A stretch of DNA of 64,000 bases from Daphnia pulex (lineage: Eukaryota; Arthropoda; Branchiopoda; Diplostraca; Daphniidae). The notes below the pieces were generated by a model. It was given only the letters and a program-made list of their open reading frames with translations, had not been told where the DNA came from and searched no databases. The position numbers and the translations under genes were made by a program. The stretch lies in NCBI RefSeq assembly GCF_021134715.1, contig NC_060023.1, positions 9,920,001 to 9,984,000 of the forward strand. Reading direction: 5' to 3'. Shown one piece after another: positions 27,008-39,048 of the stretch (the stretch's first letter is position 1; the number at the start of each line of letters is the position of its first letter).

Positions 27008-28164
27008 CATTTAAGCAACTTGATCTCGGTCGTCTGGACGAACCCTACCGACTCTCATGGGTACGACATTTAGACGGTAGGGTTCGTCCAGACGACCATA
27101 GGCACGGTAGCGCTCATGGTGGCAGAGGGCTACAACACACTGTCCTACAACATACTGTCAATATAAACAAAGCAGTTCAAAAGTGTCAATTCAGGTTTAT
27201 TGCAGGTTTAGTGCCGTTTCTCACAGTCACAGTATGTCAGGTAGAGATTTGATGAAAGATTCTCTGACCAGGCATCGAGCCAGAACCAAAGCCGATAAAA
27301 GAAAAAATGATGCTTTGTAACAGGAACCTAAACGTTCAGGTAACTTCTTGACCGTAATTTTGGCAGAGGCAGAGGCCGAGTTACCCAGTCTGATGAAGTT
27401 GTAGCAGTTTCTAATCAAGAAACTGCTAGTGAAATAACTCCCAGTCTAATGGTAAGTTTATCAATATTTGTGTTCAAGTTTACGATTAAAAAATGTTCCA
27501 TTGTTTACAGAAAGAAGTGGTGTACAGGATATCATTCATTCAGTCGAACTGGAAAAGACATCATTGAAGCAAGCATTTCACAATTTAACAAGTAGAAAAA
27601 GGAAGCAATCAAGAAAGCGAGTGGAAAACTCGCATGAAAGACAAAGAAGATGCTTGGGATTCCAAGAGAGATGCTGTCTTTCAAAACTACATTAGCTCCC
27701 GTTCCTACAGTGCAAGTAAATGTGGTGTATGTGAAAAAGTCACTAATCCTGTACATCACTGTTGAAGGTAATAGCGGTTTCTTGAATTATTTATGTAGAT
27801 TAATAATTATCTTGTTTTATAGTGTCCCTTCCTGTCCAGAATGCAAAAGCCCTCATTCGTGTACTACGAAACCTGGTTCAAGAGACGTAACCGTAGTTAC
27901 AGCCAATGGTAAATGAGGGCAACTTCACGGAGGACAACCGATTACCAGGATTACATCGACGAAGACACAGCCAATTATCAAGACTACGCTGATGAAGAAA
28001 ATGAAGAAAAAAACTGTTATCCATCGTTTAAAACGCTCACATATATTGTCATGCAAATCTTGTAATCGCATTTGAAATACAGCTATTGTTTGAAGGGAAT
28101 AAAAGTATAATAATGAGCTTTTTGATTTGTTTCATGAACATTATTCGTCACCTTATAGGCATAT

Positions 28165-29175: not shown

Positions 29176-30329
29176 AAGGCATATAAGGATGACGAATAAT
29201 GTTGATGAAACAAATCAAAAGCTCGCAAGAATACTTTTATTCCCTTCAAACAATAGCTCTATTTCAAATGTAATTACAAGATTTGCATAAATATATGTGA
29301 GCGTTTTAAACGATGGATAATAATTGTTGTCTTCATTTTCTTCATCAGCGTAGTCTTGATAATTGGCTGTGTCTTCGTCGATGTAATCCTGGTAATCGGT
29401 TGTCCTCCGTGAAGTTGCCCTCATTTACCATTGGCTGTAACTACGGTTACGTCTCTTGAACCAGGTTTCGTAGTACACGAATGAGGGCTTTTGCATTCTG
29501 GACAGGAAGGGACACTATAAAACAAGATAATTATTAATCTACATAAATAATTCAAGAAACCGCTATTACCTTCAACAGTGATGTACAGGATTAGTGACTT
29601 TTTCACATACACCACATTTACTTGCACTGTAGGAACGGGAGCTAATGTAGTTTTGAAAGACAGCATCTCTCTTGGAATCCCAAGCATCTTCTTTGTCTTT
29701 CATGCGAGTTTTCCACTCGCTTTCTTGATTGCTTCCTTTTTCTACTTGTTAAATTGTGAAATGCTTGCTTCAATGATGTCTTTTCCAGTTCGACTGAATG
29801 AATGATATCCTGTACACCACTTCTTTCTGTAAACAATGGAACATTTTTTAATCGTAAACTTGAACACAAATATTGATAAACTTACCATTAGACTGGGAGT
29901 TATTTCACTAGCAGTTTCTTGATTAGAAACTGCTACAACTTCATCAGACTGGGTAACTCGGCCTCTGCCTCTGCCAAAATTACGGTCAAGAAGTTACCTG
30001 AACGTTTAGGTTCCTGTTACAAAGCATCATTTTTTCTTTTATCGGCTTTGGTTCTGGCTCGATGCCTGGTCAGAGAATCTTTCATCAAATCTCTACCTGA
30101 CATACTGTGACTGTGAGAAACGGCACTAAACCTGCAATAAACCTGAATTGACACTTTTGAACTGCTTTGTTTATATTGACAGTATGTTGTAGGACAGTGT
30201 GTTGTAGCCCTCTGCCACCATGAGCGCTACCGTGCCTATGGTCGTCTGGACGAACCCTACCGTCTAAATGTCGTACCCATGAGAGTCGGTAGGGTTCGTC
30301 CAGACGACCGAGATCAAGTTGCATTTAAG

Positions 30330-32487
30330 GCAATGATACTAAGTGCGGCAACATAACGTGTTTTTGCCCCATACTACGACAAAATTACCAAAATATCTTC
30401 AACTAGGTTTGAACACAAAGTTTCTGCGTGGCACTTCAAGCCTATATACCACTTAGCTACCATGACTCCATTGACAAAATCTAATTCTTACTGACAGATC
30501 TACTAACGCTTAATAATAAAAAAAAAATTAGTTAAACAGTTCGAGGCAAGTCAGAATGATTACCTGCTGTAAGACTTGGGACAATCCTGTACGTCGTTGT
30601 ACTCGAGTGCTTGACTACTGCTGCAATTGACCGTCACGAGATATCGCAAACCCTGAATAGACAAAACTTTTTTGTTCCTTATTAAGTATAAATAAGGAAT
30701 ATTTCAACAATTACGGAAACCTAAATCACCTTTATCTAAAACTGGCCGTGAAAGCACCACCACCGTCAATCAGACTTGTACCGCCAAGAAACCAATGTTA
30801 TTTGCGCGAATGCCGTTAGCTACAGCCATCTCGTTCAGCTGGGCCAATGCGCCTATTGCCTGACGCTAAAATCGGAAATGCTTTTACCACCGATATGTTC
30901 AGTTTCCGGATCGACTGGAGCAGTGGTTTCAGATATCGTATGGTGAACCGATAACAATCTCATTTGGTTTCTACGAGTACGCACGTGGAAAGTGCGGCTG
31001 AGGAGTAAAGATTTTCTTCGCTGGTTCCTCAAATGGATGGGGAGCGAGTTGTTCCTGAGTGAGATGTTGTTCAGCGTTTTACAGTTGTTCCGCCGAGTCA
31101 CCACTCGATCCACGATCCGAATCACTTCATCGAATTTCAGATCTGTCCAATTTCAAAGTTAGTAAGTAGCGAGTTCCCGGCTACATGTCAATTTGTTCAA
31201 CCTGATTGACTGGGGGAGAACTATGCCCACTCTAACAAAGTCTCAATCTCCTGTGAAAAATGAACAATAACTGAATAAATTGAAGCTCTAAATAGTTTCA
31301 ATGATGGAATTTTACCAAATGCGATATCTGATGACCCCTCCGGCAACAAAACTTCGTCGGGGTCCGGTTCGTCGCGGTGATGTTGGAATCCGATGCGATA
31401 ATGGATACGATCAGGATCTCCAGGAGCTGCAGAATAAATTTGGTTGAAAAAAGAATAATTCGGTCTCAGCTTTGGTAACCGTTTCCTATACTTTTGTTTC
31501 GCAACTACAAACGAACGCTGAGAGACACTGCAACCATCAAAATGATAGACATGAGTTTACCTGTGAGTTTTCACTTAAGTTTAAATAAAGGAGCTAAAAA
31601 AAATGGTTAAAAATGGCTTTCTTTTCAATCTCCCCTCAGACCTGACTCCAGTAAATGCTGGAGTTCTTCAAATTATCGCTGAAGTTGAAATACTAAAGCC
31701 ATAATTTCCGTTTTTCGAACTGTGAATACAAATCAGATTTTAGTATCGCTTTTTGTCAGACTTTGAGTAATTTACGTTGGCGTTTGTAAGTTCCGACTCT
31801 TGTCTCCACATTGTAGAGTCGCTAAGGCCGGAATATCTTCCAGGGTGATCCGGGGTGAGATTTTCTCCATGACACTAGGGGGAAAACTCGGGTAAACTTC
31901 TAGAGGTAAGTCGGGCTGTTAATATTTTACAAATTAGGGAGTTAGCTGCATACTGGGTAGCCAATTGCAAGACCTGGATGGACGTCTTTCTGTTAGAATT
32001 CTATAAGGTGAAATGTCAAGCTGATATTTGTCTCTGCTGTTTCGAAATCGACCAATTCAATATGAGTTATTCGTCTACCAACTGAACAACTCGATATTCT
32101 CTTTATCCTGATTACAAGCATTCAAAAAAATTTCTAATTTTGGTAAATAAAAGGAGATGTCATAACAATGAAAACTTTGATGTGAAAGCAGACTCGTGGG
32201 CTACATGCTATACTAACCATCCCGCACCGATACCTTTCGGCTTACGGTAGCATGACACAAAATGTTGATTTGCCTTCCTTTTTTTCTCGAATTTTGTTCT
32301 TCGTAAGCCCAATACCTCTTGTGTCCTGTGAGCTCCAATTGCACAGCCTTGCAAATTTCCCCTCTTGTTTTGTTTATTGCTAGATGGCAGCATTCCGCAT
32401 TTTTTCCTCCTTCGCTAGATGGTGTAGTAGGGGATGCCCCTTTTCAGGTGTTTTGTTTTTCAATCTAAAAAATGGGCTAAATCTAAA
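30330..32487. other. intergenic with decayed minus-strand coding fragments
   Basis: On the minus strand, two splice-bounded open pieces can be seen: about 31430-31315 (begins PGDPDRIHYRIGF, contains EPDPDEVLLPEG) and about 31142-30853 (KFDEVIRIVDRVVTRRNN, then frame breaks). The second continues only after changing frame (QAIGALAQLNEMAVANGI). I do not recognise the family. It looks like a dead gene. 31.5-32.48 kb holds nothing I can support. Confidence 0.35.
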
Positions 32488-32905
32488 TGGATCGATCACA
32501 CGCTCACCGAGAAGCCCGTACCCGTAATCGTAATTTTAAATGGCTGAATTAAAAATGCCAATACTGATCTTGCAGGAAGCAAAGTTGCAATCGTTATGAC
32601 ATGGACCACTTAAATTTAGAGCAGCCCAAATCAATCGTCACTCAGCAGGATCATAACGAAATCGCTACTCGAATGACCCCTGTTAGCCCTCACCAAGCAG
32701 CTCCAAACATTTGACTATAGTCGCGATCATACCAGTAAATTGTGCAGCAATTTTTGATTCCATCAACCTATAAAAATTCTCTGAGACACAACGTTGAGCT
32801 CTTTCGTCTGGTTATAATAACACAAAATTCTTGATTAACATTACAAAAATAGTTCAGTGAAAATCAAACATTTTCCGAAAGGTTAAAAACAAAATACTGA
32901 AATGA
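32488..32905 (+). pseudogene. truncated duplicate of the phosphodiesterase C-terminus
   Basis: Matches 984-1655 of the window: the tail of the exon with TGGATCGATCAC, the following intron (aaatggctga-ttaaaaatgcc), the next short exon, and the last exon with GACATGGACCA, GAGCAGCCCAAATCAAT, GTTAGCCCTCACCAAG and ACCAGTAAATTGTG, then 3' flank. Several internal deletions reduce ~670 bp to ~420 bp, splice donors are lost and the reading frame is broken. Because intron and 3' flank are included, this is a DNA-level duplication and not a retrocopy. Confidence 0.85.
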
Positions 32906-32952
32906 ACATTTTTTATAGTGACTATGTCACTGAAATTAACTGTTTAATAAGC

Positions 32953-35790
32953 TTAACGTTTACGATGACTAACCGGAAGAAGATGGAGATCGTCCAATTC
33001 TTTGAGTTGATGAAGACGTTCGCAAGCTCGCAGAGCAGCTGCGCGTTTGGCTAGACGTTTAGTTAACATAGGGTCACCAACTACTTCTCCTTGCAACGGC
33101 GAACTCTTTGGCAACAACAAACGGCACTGGAACAAAGCAATTTTCTCAGCAGGTTCTTTGGTAGAGAGGGGTTTAACCACGGGCAACTGTTTCATCAATT
33201 CCTTCATCTTTTTTAGCAATAACGGATCAGCTTTACTCTCATCCACTTCCTTGATGCTCCATCTGGGAACCAGGACAGATGCTCCGTAAGACACGAGTTG
33301 ACTGCAATACCTGTAAAAGATTCAATTTAGAAATCAAATGTTCAAAAAAGATAATAAATAGTAATAATTACCTGTTGACAAGCGATATGCTACTTTGTAA
33401 AGTAACTCGGGGTCCTTGGTTGCCATAAGGAGTGTAAGGTTCGATTATCTGACTAAATAGATTGTCTAGAATCGCGTCCTTGTCATCTTCAAAGTTACCC
33501 GTGGCTACGAGCTGCTGCTCGATAGCGTGGAAATGCGCCATATCTTCTAGGAATTTTTTTGAGTCACTACTACTCACCAGCATACAAAAAAAGGCTTTCT
33601 TAGACCTTGCTCGACCTGGCGTTATTTTTAAATGAAAATTACCCGTGAAATTTATTTTCTCAATAACTTCTAAATAATTGATTACCCTTTGTCTGGACGT
33701 AGTCGCAATAAGTTCTTATTTTATCAAACCGAACAATTAAATTGCATTCGGGGATGTCGACTCCTTCTTCCAGTACACTTGTGGCCACCAACAAGTTACA
33801 GTTACCCGATCGAAAATCTCTCATAATGTCCTTCTGATTCATATTGAGAATTTGCGTTTCTCTGAGGGACGAAGCGGAACCTGCCGCCTGGCCCATGGTG
33901 AACAAAGGTTTCACAAACTCTAGGTTCTCATCATGTTGCCGAATGTCCTGAAACGAGATAAAAAAAAGACTCAACAGTTATTCGCGAGTACAAAGTAACA
34001 AGAGATGCAGGGTGAAACCTTCAGGAAGTGATACAAGACACTGGCCACCGATCGTCTTTCAACGAAAATGATACCGCACATCTTGAATGCCCTGTACAAA
34101 GAGAGGACGCTAAAGTGATTCCACGAATTTCTTTTCTAAACAGAAACTTACTTTTCATCAGGCCTACAGCGTTTAGGGTTGAAGTTTTGTATAATATCCA
34201 ACAAGCGTATGACGTTAGGGTGGACAAACAACACTAAGCGTTCCTTTGCCGAGTATTTCGCAAAAACAGGAGCGCAAACATCTCTAAAAAACCACAAAAA
34301 CTAAATAAACTGTTTCCAAACGAAATGTTTAAAAAATGAATACTGAATTTTGTGACAGATATTTATCACTTTGTTGAAATCAGCACTTTGAGATCGACTT
34401 TTAGCTCCCATCAAAATAGGAATGTAAAGTTGTGCGCAGTGATAAGCACCGTACGGACCTGTTTTTTGTTTTTTTAAGGAAATGAAATCAACAACTATAA
34501 ATCGTAAAACCAAATATACCGAAATTTTCCAGGAGGAAGCCAATGTCTTTAAGTGCGTCGCATAATACTTCAATCTTGTTCGATTTTTTCCCGCCAAAAG
34601 TATTATTCAATCCAGATCCACTATAGTTTTGGGATAATTTTAAAAAGTCCTGGATCCATGACGACAACGTGCACGAAGCCAGTAAAGTCTCGATCAGTTT
34701 ACTCAACTCCTGTGAAACAGGATTCTGACCAATGTTGACGTCATCATACTGAAATATGACTTCGCAGGGTTTCGTAGAGGAGCTTATTACAAACGGGGTA
34801 GTCAGAACGACGTGAACTAACGAGGCAATTTGAATTTAAATTACCGGTAGACTGTCTGGACGTCGGATGGAATTCTAACGATGCAACCCATCGATTCAGA
34901 GAGTTGCTTGATTACGCCACGCACCTCTCGAGGCTTACACCGTTTTCTAAAGAGGGCCGCAGTAAGTCCGAGAATTTTTGGTCGCCGAGCAACTGATGAA
35001 AACGGAATCATTATTAGTTTAACCATTAATAGAGGATGAGGAAAATTCATTTTCTTTTACCGTCACAACTGCGCAGTTTCGTGAGTACTTGTTTCATGGG
35101 CGCGTCTTTCACTGCTGAGTGGCACTCGTCGAATACCAGCAAGTTGAGTTGGTAGGGGGAAAAGAAGGCGTGATTCAAAATATCCACAAAAATTTGAGCA
35201 GTCATCACTAGCACGTGATTAGTTTCAAATTCGGTTTCCCACCTGAAAGGGTTTTCAATTCAGAAAATTACAAACATTAGAACATACAAATAAAGAAAAA
35301 AAATGGAATCAAATATACTTTTGTTTGTCTCTCCCCCACATGTCCACACCCATACTCCCATAGAATTCTTTCACTTTTAAAAGAGTATGCTTCCTCAAAT
35401 ATGCAGCCTGTTGGATGGCCAGAACGATTGTAGGGACAAGAAACACTGTTCGCTTCCCTCCAGCACTTAATGATTTAGTGACTTCATGAGACTTTTCCTT
35501 AATAAGAAGGGCTGCTATGTATGTTTTGCCTGAACCAGTAGGCAAGTAAACTATAATATTTTCATCCAGGGCTGCTTGGAATAGTTCAATCTGAAAAATG
35601 GAAATGTTTTACGAATTTCACCAATTTTTACTTTACAATCATCACAATTTCACTATATTGCCAATAACGTATGCCATTGACTCAACTGCATTAAAACATC
35701 AAAAGAAAGTACCTGATAATCCCTAGGACTGAAAACTCCATCATCTTCATCTAGATGAATGTTCGCAACAGCAGCTTCTAATGCTTCCAT
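32953..35790 (-). CDS. Dicer-type helicase protein lacking PAZ and RNase III domains (708 aa)
   Basis: Eleven exons (minus): 35790-35713, 35590-35319, 35242-35061, 34992-34845, 34782-34520, 34458-34344, 34283-34152, 34091-34019, 33947-33686, 33615-33372, 33310-32953, all in phase (709 codons with stop). Motif I LPTGSGKT is at about residue 42, the DECH box at about 155 ([13 protein letters not shown]), motif III region ILGLTA follows, motif [17 protein letters not shown] at about 472, and motif VI QTKGRARSK at about 506. The Dicer-specific insert region ([10 protein letters not shown]) is present. From about 570 the DUF283/dimerisation domain follows, ending [20 protein letters not shown] and a stop. 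Canonical Dicers continue into PAZ and two RNase III domains of more than 1000 residues. None is seen downstream, where a PDE pseudogene lies instead. It may act as a dsRNA-binding ATPase. Exon 6-7 borders are the least certain. Confidence 0.88.
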
Positions 35791-36603
35791 GACTTTAGCA
35801 GTAATTTGGAAATGAAAAGAACAGCAATACATAAAAATTAAATTATGACATATAAAGCTATCATAGCATAGTCTGTGCTTCAAAGAACATGTTAAAAGGG
35901 GTATGCTTCATCGTTCCAGTCACAAAAGTTAGAAAATACTATAGTCACATGGTATCCTTGATTAGACATTTTGGTTTTTTTCATTTTGGCAAATTATCTA
36001 AGTATATGCAACAGTTAACTACTAGTGTTTGATTTATAATAATATACCTTGGATATTCAATCAAATGTTGAGTCTACTTGAATTATTCTCAAACACATAC
36101 GTTTCAAATGCATAACAAGCGTTTAGAACGTCTTATAGCATGCTCCAATTTCACGATTTGATGTTGTGAAATCGCAAGCTCGTCAGCGAGGACATCTGGC
36201 GAAAATAAAAAAAATATCAGTGTTAAATAAAAAAATGAGCTGATAATTAATGTGAATATTCTACGAATTATTTTCTAGAGTTGTAAAAGTTATTAATTTT
36301 ATCAAACCAAAAATGTCACGAACTCAAACTTGAATAATTTTCCCGCCATCTGAAAGTTTCCAGTTTCCAACACACTGCAACGAGCGCCACTTGATAAAAT
36401 CCAACAGAATTAAACGAGAAATCGATTTCGAGTCTTTGTACTAGTGTGAGGAGTGTTGCTATTTATTATTCAAGCGCTTTCATCAATGACATCCAAAAGA
36501 GGAGGAAGTAGCAAGCAAAAGACAAGTGAGGTGAACGGGAAAAAAAATGTGCTTTATTTTGATCCAAAAAGCGATTATTTTTTTTCGAAAAGGACGAGTT
36601 TGC
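35791..36603. other. Dicer-like gene 5' region and CCT7 3' flank
   Basis: Contains the probable 5' UTR and promoter of the minus-strand Dicer-like gene (35791-36400) and, below 36604, the CCT7 3' UTR. A second upstream coding exon of the Dicer-like gene cannot be excluded, but the ATG at 35790 suits the family N-terminus. Short + strand open frames at 36453-36930 are shadows of CCT7 exons. Confidence 0.45.
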
Positions 36604-39048
36604 TTAACGACGGCCACGGCCGGGAGGAGCTGGACCTTCACCGGATTTCGGGTTCTTGATGGTTTCGTCCACCGAGAGAATAAGACACGTCGCTTCGGAT
36701 GCAGCACTCAGTGCGTTGATCTTCACTAGTGACGGTTCCCAGACACACTTCTCCATGTTGTCTGCCACATCTTCGTTCAAAATGTCAACTCCCATCCAGC
36801 GGTTACCTTTTGATTTAAAAGACAAATTCTTGAATAACCATTTTTTAACTAGAGCATTACATTTCATTACCTTGGGCATGTTTCTGCCTCAACTTGTTCA
36901 AAATGTTGGTCGAATCGAATCCAGCGTTATCACATAGCTGCCGTGGAATGACCTCTAGGGCTCGAGCAATAGCGCTGATGAGCATCTGCTCTTTGCCGGC
37001 GATCGTGCGGGAAACATCGCGGAGATGTTTGGACAATTCCATTTCAATAGCTCCACCACCTAAGAATCAGTCAGATCAAATCAGTTAGAACCCACTGAGA
37101 TTCACAGTTCGATCAATTTAATTTTTACCAGCAACAACGGCATCGTTCTTCTTGGCTCGACGGACAATCATGATGGCATCGTGAAGGGATCGTTCAGTTT
37201 CTTCCATAAACTGTTCAGCTCCACCACGAATGATGATGGTGCAAGTTTTGGCTTGAGGGCAACCTTTGAAAAGGTTGAACCTAATCGAAATAGAATAGTT
37301 AAATGATAAAATGGGTCAAGAACCAAATGATAACTTGATTAGATACCTGTCACCGCCGATTTGACTCTCTTCGAAATGTTGACAGGTTCCGAGGACGGAG
37401 TCGCCGAGATCAGCCACAGTCGTCAGAATTGAACCACCGCAAGCTTTCATGGTACGTTTAAGATCTTCATCGGGAACACGGCCGGCGCAGAACATGTCAC
37501 GGTCGGCGAAATACTGGGTGGCGACGTCTCCAATTGGAAGTTTGGAAAGGACAACTTTAGCACCGCTCAAATGAAGTTTCTCCAGTTTGTCGTACAAAAT
37601 GGTCCATTCGGCATCGACGACTTTTTGATATTCCTGTTCACGAAAGAGATGCGTCGTTATACATTTTTATTAAAGTCATAATCGCCAAAATGTTGATTAC
37701 CTCGACGTTCTCGAGACGAACTTCGGCATTGTCGCGTTCAGCCTTGAGCTCCAGCTCAATGTTGAGCAGAGCAATTTTGGGATCAGTGTACTGTTTGGGC
37801 TGCATTTCAAAACCAGCGTATGAGAAGGTTTTCTTGAAGGCAACACCGGCAACAAGGAGTGTGTCCTAATATTCAACAGGAATTTGTTAAGTTTTACAGT
37901 TCAATTTTATACAAAAGGGTCCACTCACTTCCAGCGCTCCACCAGGTACTTTCTTGATGCCAATCATGTTGAGGGGAAGCAGATCATCAAGCATCAGGAC
38001 AGCATCGACAACCATCTTGGAGAAGAAATCTTTCTGTTGGTTGATCAGCTTGGAGCCCATAGCAGTAGCAGCACATTTCTCAAGCAACTGTCTCAGTTCT
38101 GTTTCATCATCTTTCTTGGGCTGTAAATACAAATGGATTTTAAACAAAATTGATGAGAATGCATTTGAGTTTGTTTCTAAGGTTACCTTCTCAGCAATTT
38201 CGTTGATGAATTGAACTGCTAGCTGTGTAGCTCTACGGACACCGCGAATGATGATTTGGGAGTGAACACCTTCCTCTACAAATGGTTTCATTTGCTTGAG
38301 AAATTCTCCAGCCAAGATGACCACACTGGTGGTACCATCTCCCACTTCCGCATCTTGAGACTTTGCAATGTCAACCAGAGTTTTGGCTGCCGGGTGAACA
38401 ACGTCAAGTAGCTTCATGATAGTTGCTCCATCGTTAGAGATTGTGGCTTTCCCACCCATATCAACCATCAATTTGTCCATGCCCCTGGGGCCAAGAGTTG
38501 TTCGAACACAGTCGACAATAGCCTGGTTTAGGAAGATAACCTTTAAATTCAGAAATTAATTCTCGGACAAAACAAAATTTCCATACCTGGCAGGCATTGA
38601 TATTTGAAATGATCTGGGATCTTCCTTGAGAAGCTTCAGTCCCCTCCTTCAACAGGATGATCTGTGGTTGCTATTGATCAAAATGAAAAGATTGATAAAT
38701 TTTTAAAAAAATATTGACTTTTCGTTGATCATGACAAAGGAAAGTTTTTTTTGTGAATTTTTTAAAACACACCAAGTTTTAATCTTACACCACAAGGCAA
38801 AATGTTTAATGCATTCAGGATTTTAACGAAAAACCAAGCCTTTGAACCTTTAAAACCCAAAAGTTTACTCGACGACATAAATTAATGAAACGTCATGTGC
38901 TTGTCATGGGGCGGGGATTGTCATGCACGTGCCGTCTGATTCTTCCCACAATAAAAGAGCATAAAACCCGAGTGAAATTCCATTTCAATCTCGAGTATTC
39001 AATTCAACACATTATTTCGTAATTAAATAGGACAAGGTTAGTTACCAT
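36604..39048 (-). CDS. CCT7: T-complex protein 1 subunit eta (CCT7), cytosolic chaperonin subunit (536 aa)
   Basis: Nine coding exons (minus): 39048-39046 (ATG only), 38670-38587, 38522-38187, 38120-37929, 37865-37701, 37633-37347, 37280-37129, 37059-36871, 36806-36604, totalling 537 codons. Group II chaperonin motifs are present: [24 protein letters not shown], the [10 protein letters not shown] nucleotide-binding loop, [17 protein letters not shown], the apical domain with [30 protein letters not shown], and the C-terminal [17 protein letters not shown] and VDETIKNP before a Gly/Arg-rich tail. Eta-specific features ([26 protein letters not shown]) identify the subunit. It works in the eight-subunit TRiC ring that folds actin and tubulin. 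The first coding exon holds only the start codon. Confidence 0.96.

Follow-up and report, generated by a model that had tools for sequence, protein, structure and literature searches.

The window analysed here is a 64,000-nucleotide (nt) stretch of the Daphnia pulex genome on contig C7, one of the 13 contigs (133.19 Mb) covered by our genome searches. On its minus strand lies a gene that encodes the helicase and the DUF283 domain of a Dicer and then stops, which we call the HEL-DUF gene. An earlier reading made from the letters alone (the sequence-only reading) had proposed an in-phase gene of 11 exons here, and its coordinates, strand, exons and stop hold: the joined exons give a single open frame of 708 codons, in which the donor of exon 6 at 34344 keeps the phase. 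The gene, its exons and the feature that adjoins its 3′ end are as follows.

32953–35790, minus strand: HEL-DUF gene, 11 coding exons, 708 amino acids, ATG at 35790 and stop codon at 32955–32953
35713–35790, minus strand: exon 1, N terminus, ...FSPRDYQ
35319–35590, minus strand: exon 2, HEL1, with Walker A LPTGSGKT at 35522–35545
35061–35242, minus strand: exon 3, HEL1, with DECH at 35119–35130
34845–34992, minus strand: exon 4, GLTAAL motif III
34520–34782, minus strand: exon 5, HEL2i (domain borders within the helicase chosen by us)
34344–34458, minus strand: exon 6, HEL2i, donor at 34344
34152–34283, minus strand: exon 7, HEL2i
34019–34091, minus strand: exon 8, start of HEL2, IIFVERR
33686–33947, minus strand: exon 9, HEL2
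33372–33615, minus strand: exon 10, HEL2 motif VI QTKGRAR (spanning intron 9) and pincer region
32953–33310, minus strand: exon 11, DUF283 (Dicer_dimer), then the stop
32488–32910, plus strand: decayed fragment copied from a phosphodiesterase gene (3′ end); 42 bp separate it from the stop of the HEL-DUF gene

The exon borders were picked to preserve the frame and are predictions from the genomic sequence of one genome in one assembly. Independent support for them comes from a paralogue, a Dicer-2 gene on contig C9 (hereafter C9): all ten introns, each bounded by GT–AG and 60–122 nt long, have a counterpart of the same phase in C9, and the lengths of exons 1–10 differ between the two genes only by multiples of three (0–21 nt). 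These common introns also led us to reject the idea that the HEL-DUF gene is a retrocopy. The start at ATG 35790 is a choice within a frame that stays open farther upstream; C9 begins at a comparable place. Among 138 PDB sequences that match the protein, the best is AncD1D2, a 652-residue helicase–DUF283 construct (E = 9e-144), and the differences from C9 are distributed over codon positions 1, 2 and 3 as 179, 125 and 382; this match and this skew place the gene beyond chance.

The upstream neighbour, which we take to encode the chaperonin subunit CCT-eta, lies on the same strand and ends at 36604. Between the two genes, a possible untranslated first exon of the HEL-DUF gene is seen at about 36102–36197 (minus strand), flanked by an acceptor-like CAG on one side and a donor-like GTATGT on the other. 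On the other side, a dispersed repeat occupies about 30480–31934, where 41 of 52 matches in a genome search fall, at 69–82% identity (the best 40 of 67 candidates being scored). Farther along, arms of 1,033 nt at 27015–28047 and 29290–30322 form an inverted repeat, 100% complementary, around a 1,242-nt spacer that holds tandem units of about 148 nt. The family of this repeat has 78 matches, with paired arms at 88–100% on several contigs, and a weak CxC3/KDZ-associated Pfam match below the cut-off coincides with it. We regard it as a long foldback element, which would form a long hairpin if transcribed.

A Pfam scan of the predicted protein found four families and no other: DEAD and ResIII over residues 21–192 (the DEAD match starting at residue 24), Helicase_C over residues 453–511 and Dicer_dimer (DUF283, PF03368) over residues 584–706, the last covering model positions 1–88 of 89 with an E value of 1.6e-20. 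Motifs of superfamily 2 (SF2) helicases are present, including DECH and those that we take to be Walker A, motif III and motif VI (QTKGRAR). Consistent with the sequence-only reading, then, intact Dicer helicase motifs are followed by a full DUF283 and a stop.

The dicing half of a Dicer, by contrast, is missing, as had also been claimed. The Pfam scan of the protein detected no platform/PAZ, RNase III or dsRBD domain, and a query of 832 residues of C9, running from platform/PAZ to RNase IIIb with the dsRBD left out, gave a best E of 0.68 against the whole window. In profile searches of the genome, whose counts for RNase III, PAZ and DUF283 are lower bounds, none of at least 20 RNase III matches lies on C7, and one of at least 15 PAZ matches does, at 8.515 Mb, 1.4 Mb from the HEL-DUF gene. 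We therefore rejected missed downstream PAZ/RNase III exons. Moreover, in C9 and in a second Dicer-2 gene, C2b (11.39 Mb of contig C2), the frame continues beyond the end of DUF283 without a stop or an intron (open frames of 387 and 377 amino acids), whereas the HEL-DUF gene stops five codons past the end of its alignment with C9, whose final stretch is residues 694–703. The locus is known from one assembly, and a misassembly, or transcripts that splice to PAZ/RNase III exons elsewhere, would make the C-terminal half displaced or overlooked rather than lost; given the empty window, the absence of RNase III matches from C7 and the position of the stop, we consider this very improbable. With helicase and DUF283 present and PAZ and RNase III absent, the gene no longer encodes a Dicer nuclease.

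Matches to DUF283 were found at five places in the genome: 8.40 Mb and 11.39 Mb on C2, 9.54 Mb on C9, the HEL-DUF gene and 2.01 Mb on C5. At both C2 loci and on C9, PAZ and RNase III matches adjoin DUF283, so that the genome has three full Dicers in addition to the HEL-DUF gene, two of them Dicer-2 (C9 and C2b). The C5 match and a further one on C3 were rejected as extra stand-alone helicases, because both are scraps of C9 at 91–94% DNA identity with frameshifts and, on C5, stops. The C5 scrap carries two stops, four frameshifting indels and 66 substitutions over 944 aligned bases; as 42 of these 66 differences from C9 lie at third positions, it is an impure neutral yardstick. The C3 scrap, in which an early helicase exon is fused to sequence that lies immediately ahead of the RNase IIIa region, carries ten substitutions, no stop and one frameshifting indel over about 160 bases. 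The two are recent broken copies of the C9 Dicer-2 gene. On contig C13 (15,333 bp), we recognized frames in the first 10,000 bases, read in the invertebrate mitochondrial code, as presumably COX1, COX2, ND5 and others, and a tRNA scan of this contig with bacterial settings found none. As for the published record, three Dicers have been reported for D. pulex, of 1,979, 1,459 and 1,604 amino acids (PMC2685406, PMC3991619), and Dicer-2 is described as duplicated in this species (PMC4833078).

The genome also holds RNase III matches away from these Dicers. A gene on C4 with two RNase III domains is, we assume, Drosha; outside it and the three Dicers lie 13 of the 20 matches (11 on C12, one at C8:3977380 and one at C3:5210163). 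These scattered matches are single RNase III genes or fragments, and some neighbours may be one gene. Eleven single-RNase III loci match the RNase IIIb of C9, and none matches its RNase IIIa or platform/PAZ at an E of 0.01. Such loci could make the HEL-DUF gene one part of a split Dicer, its helicase acting in trans with a single RNase III gene on C12, C8 or C3, and both their number and their restriction to RNase IIIb fit this idea. However, most of the single matches contain stops (introns or decay), C12 has no PAZ match, and nothing in location or age connects these loci to the HEL-DUF gene; we consider a split Dicer very improbable.

The ancestry of the gene lies within Dicer-2. In a tree of six rows, two of them (Dicer-1 and human) fragmentary and none of them RIG-I, the HEL-DUF gene is sister to C9 with support of 100/99 and the pair joins C2b with 99/98; this helicase phylogeny bears out the Dicer-2 origin suggested earlier. 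The protein is 65% identical to C9 (447 residues in 683 columns), 45% to C2b (666 columns) and 43% to AncD1D2 (628 columns). Judged by a synonymous divergence (dS) of about 2.4, which is saturated, and by two introns private to C9, the split between the HEL-DUF gene and C9 is old. These introns, at YLR|RHT and SVL|EEG, are absent from both the HEL-DUF gene and C2b and were most simply gained in C9 after the split. In exon 2, amino acid identity between the two genes reaches 89%; recent gene conversion there was rejected, because 43 of the 60 nucleotide differences are at third positions.

The protein sequence has been kept under purifying selection. Between the HEL-DUF gene and C9, dN is 0.244 and dS 2.43, giving an omega of 0.10 over 683 codons, and a model with omega fixed at 1 is worse by a 2ΔlnL of 359. 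By block, with borders set by us, omega is 0.06 for HEL1, 0.14 for HEL2i, 0.09 for HEL2 and 0.12 for the pincer and DUF283; HEL2i is the least conserved block, at 48%. Per-exon dS ran off for exons 3 and 8 (115 and 139), and these two values were left aside. On the HEL-DUF branch, omega is about 0.12 with dS split evenly, or 0.20 if this branch carries all of dN. The alignment behind these values was made on proteins, so its whole-codon gaps are no evidence of a preserved frame. A frame-blind DNA alignment of the two genes has inner gaps that are not multiples of three in exons 1 (2 and 4), 5 (8 and 1) and 10 (5 and 5); these offset each other inside the same exon and may be alignment noise at such divergence or compensated shifts. 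Taken together, an omega of 0.10 and an open frame indicate that constraint on the coding sequence is strong and long-term.

The HEL-DUF gene has the longer branch in the tree (0.38, against 0.21 for C9). Relative-rate tests counted 41 changes private to it and 27 private to C9 with C2b as outgroup (χ2 = 2.88), and 44 and 33 with AncD1D2 (χ2 = 1.57), both values falling short of the 5% threshold. In 207 columns, C2b and AncD1D2 share a residue that the HEL-DUF protein, C9 or both also have; the HEL-DUF protein is the only one to differ in 13 of these columns, and C9 the only one in 8. None of the 13 lone departures of the HEL-DUF protein lies in the helicase motifs listed above, and six are in the pincer and DUF283 (P567E, D575Q, D598Y, N659S, R663Q and P672L), a placement that could reflect either relaxed constraint or contacts lost together with the dicing half.

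That the duplication is old does not suffice to make the truncation old. A full-length Dicer-2 paralogue that had long been under selection would likewise show an old duplication and high constraint, and a very recent deletion could have cut it and left a functionless remnant that has yet to decay; this genome does shed partial Dicer copies, such as the C5 and C3 scraps of C9. The time available for such a remnant can be bounded, given that 294 of the 6,372 possible single-base changes create a stop (4.1% when weighted), that 40 bases belong to splice sites and that indels were set at 0–0.1 per substitution. With no disabling event in the HEL-DUF gene, any neutral period since the truncation comes to at most about 0.011–0.024 substitutions per site. 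The deletion would also have to be clean, since the 64 kb hold no C-terminal remnant.

The phosphodiesterase fragment gives a second measure. Its parent lies about 31 kb away, at 995–1652 of the window (plus strand); the frame upstream of this matches PF00233, and we read 995–1652 as the last exon of the phosphodiesterase gene and the copy as including an intron. In a genome search in which the best 40 of 67 candidates were scored, the fragment matched one other place only. Its Kimura two-parameter (K2P) distance from the parent comes to 0.161 across 416 sites, with 0.188 for the final 144. Assuming that half of this divergence (0.08) passed with the HEL-DUF gene in its present surroundings, a neutral gene would be expected to have suffered 10–21 disabling events, and none is seen. 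A fragment this decayed, 42 bp past the stop, argues for, but does not prove, a truncation that is old too; the argument fails if a later deletion that ended exactly at the fragment took the dicing half. With that caveat, the bound and the diverged flank (already 0.16) make a very recent deletion unlikely, and we infer that constraint probably persisted after the truncation. The sequence-only reading had offered, as its alternative, a recently truncated and still undecayed Dicer-2 copy. Its Dicer-2 origin stands and a recent duplication does not, with dS at about 2.4; a recent truncation would fit only within 0.011–0.024 substitutions per site.

We therefore propose, at a probability of roughly 60%, that the gene is a free-standing Dicer-2 helicase–DUF283 module, retained by selection after an old duplication and the loss of PAZ and RNase III. 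Its closest counterparts are the ancestral Dicer constructs AncD1D2 and AncD2ARTH (PMC10159624; PDB 9mw6), which have the same two domains and the same end; these were reconstructed in the laboratory and cut at that point by the authors of the study, whereas the HEL-DUF gene is a natural gene that ends there. AncD1D2 binds double-stranded RNA (dsRNA) with a Kd of 3.4–6.5 nM without ATP, two ancestral constructs together span 3–40 nM under the same condition, and blunt dsRNA raises the efficiency with which AncD1D2 uses ATP about 19-fold (PMC10159624). AncD2ARTH, the arthropod Dicer-2 ancestor, for which no Kd was obtained, has a burst ATPase of 6.5 µM per min without and 19.3 µM per min with blunt dsRNA (PMC10159624). 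Because the HEL-DUF protein ends where these constructs end, it would be expected to clamp dsRNA and to turn over ATP in response to RNA. In human Dicer, the motifs are well conserved and yet no ATP is hydrolysed (PMC10159624). Intact motifs alone thus do not guarantee ATPase activity in the HEL-DUF protein. Reportedly, to go by the title of another paper, human Dicer does hydrolyse ATP.

In the mechanism that we envisage, an antiviral Dicer-2 gene was duplicated long ago and one copy lost its PAZ/RNase III half. The remaining protein would clamp dsRNA and, while bound to it, hydrolyse ATP without cutting. Its likeliest task would be to recognize or reshape dsRNA of viral or endogenous origin, and it might hand the RNA or a signal to a full Dicer-2, to dsRNA-binding partners or to a Vago-like response, much as DRH-1 works beside Dicer in nematodes. 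In support of such roles, the Drosophila Dicer-2 helicase is required to induce Vago, irrespective of the other members of RNAi, and DRH-1 assists Dicer (PMC8659333). The same architecture, with intact motifs and no nuclease, would also suit a decoy or dominant negative that holds dsRNA ends or Dicer-2 partners of the R2D2/Loquacious type and dampens dicing without signalling. Complete ATPase motifs would exceed what a passive decoy needs, and because they have been kept we favour an active sensor or regulator and judge a decoy unlikely. By analogy, then, the gene is best read as a natural, retained dsRNA-activated ATPase, either a sensor of the RIG-I/DRH type or a regulator of Dicer-2. The stand-alone dsRNA-sensing or regulatory ATPase of the sequence-only reading gains support from the architecture, the intact ATPase motifs, the constraint and the biochemistry of the HEL-DUF constructs, its activity being a prediction.

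The RIG-I-like receptors and nematode DRH proteins share with the HEL-DUF protein the helicase superfamily (MDA5, RIG-I, LGP2 and a Dicer-related helicase are among its PDB matches) and the lack of a nuclease. They differ in that the HEL-DUF protein has a DUF283 and, in the Pfam scan, neither the RIG-I C-terminal domain (PF11648) nor a CARD or signalling domain; since PF11648 is missing from the protein, membership of the RIG-I family was rejected. A search of the genome with PF18119 and PF11648 gave no match and carries no weight, since the controls (a prokaryote for PF11648) were silent too. Because the ancestry of the gene is in Dicer-2, its RIG-I-like layout would be convergent. On this basis, we tentatively raise the possibility, less probable than its opposite, that a RIG-I-like dsRNA sensor has been reinvented from a crustacean Dicer-2, one that would set off or gate an antiviral response but do no dicing.

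Compared with arthropod Dicer-2, of which C9 is the nearest, the gene shares the helicase and DUF283 and lacks the platform/PAZ, RNase IIIa and IIIb, the dsRBD and the two private introns of C9. Predicted truncated variants of human Dicer1, which would be partial Dicers arising as splice forms, have reportedly been described. The truncated vertebrate Dicers Dicer-O, Dicer-N1 and AviD are, like the HEL-DUF protein, partial Dicers, natural or engineered, but in them parts of the helicase are lost and the nuclease is retained, opposite to the situation here (PMC8659333). A truncated Dicer-like gene of the scorpion Mesobuthus is likewise incomplete, which its authors blame on an assembly or annotation error (PMC4833078). 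In the main texts of the mostly open-access literature covered, a stand-alone Dicer helicase like this one was not found.

In Dicer-2, dsRNA motor and nuclease form one protein. The HEL-DUF gene bears on whether the motor acts in its own right, for example in Vago induction. It would be a natural counterpart of the HEL-DUF constructs used for studying the divergence of Dicer and RIG-I helicases. With the dsRNA motor apparently retained in a gene of its own while full-length Dicer-2 genes are also present, this genome would offer a separation-of-function experiment made by nature, in an animal that is experimentally tractable.
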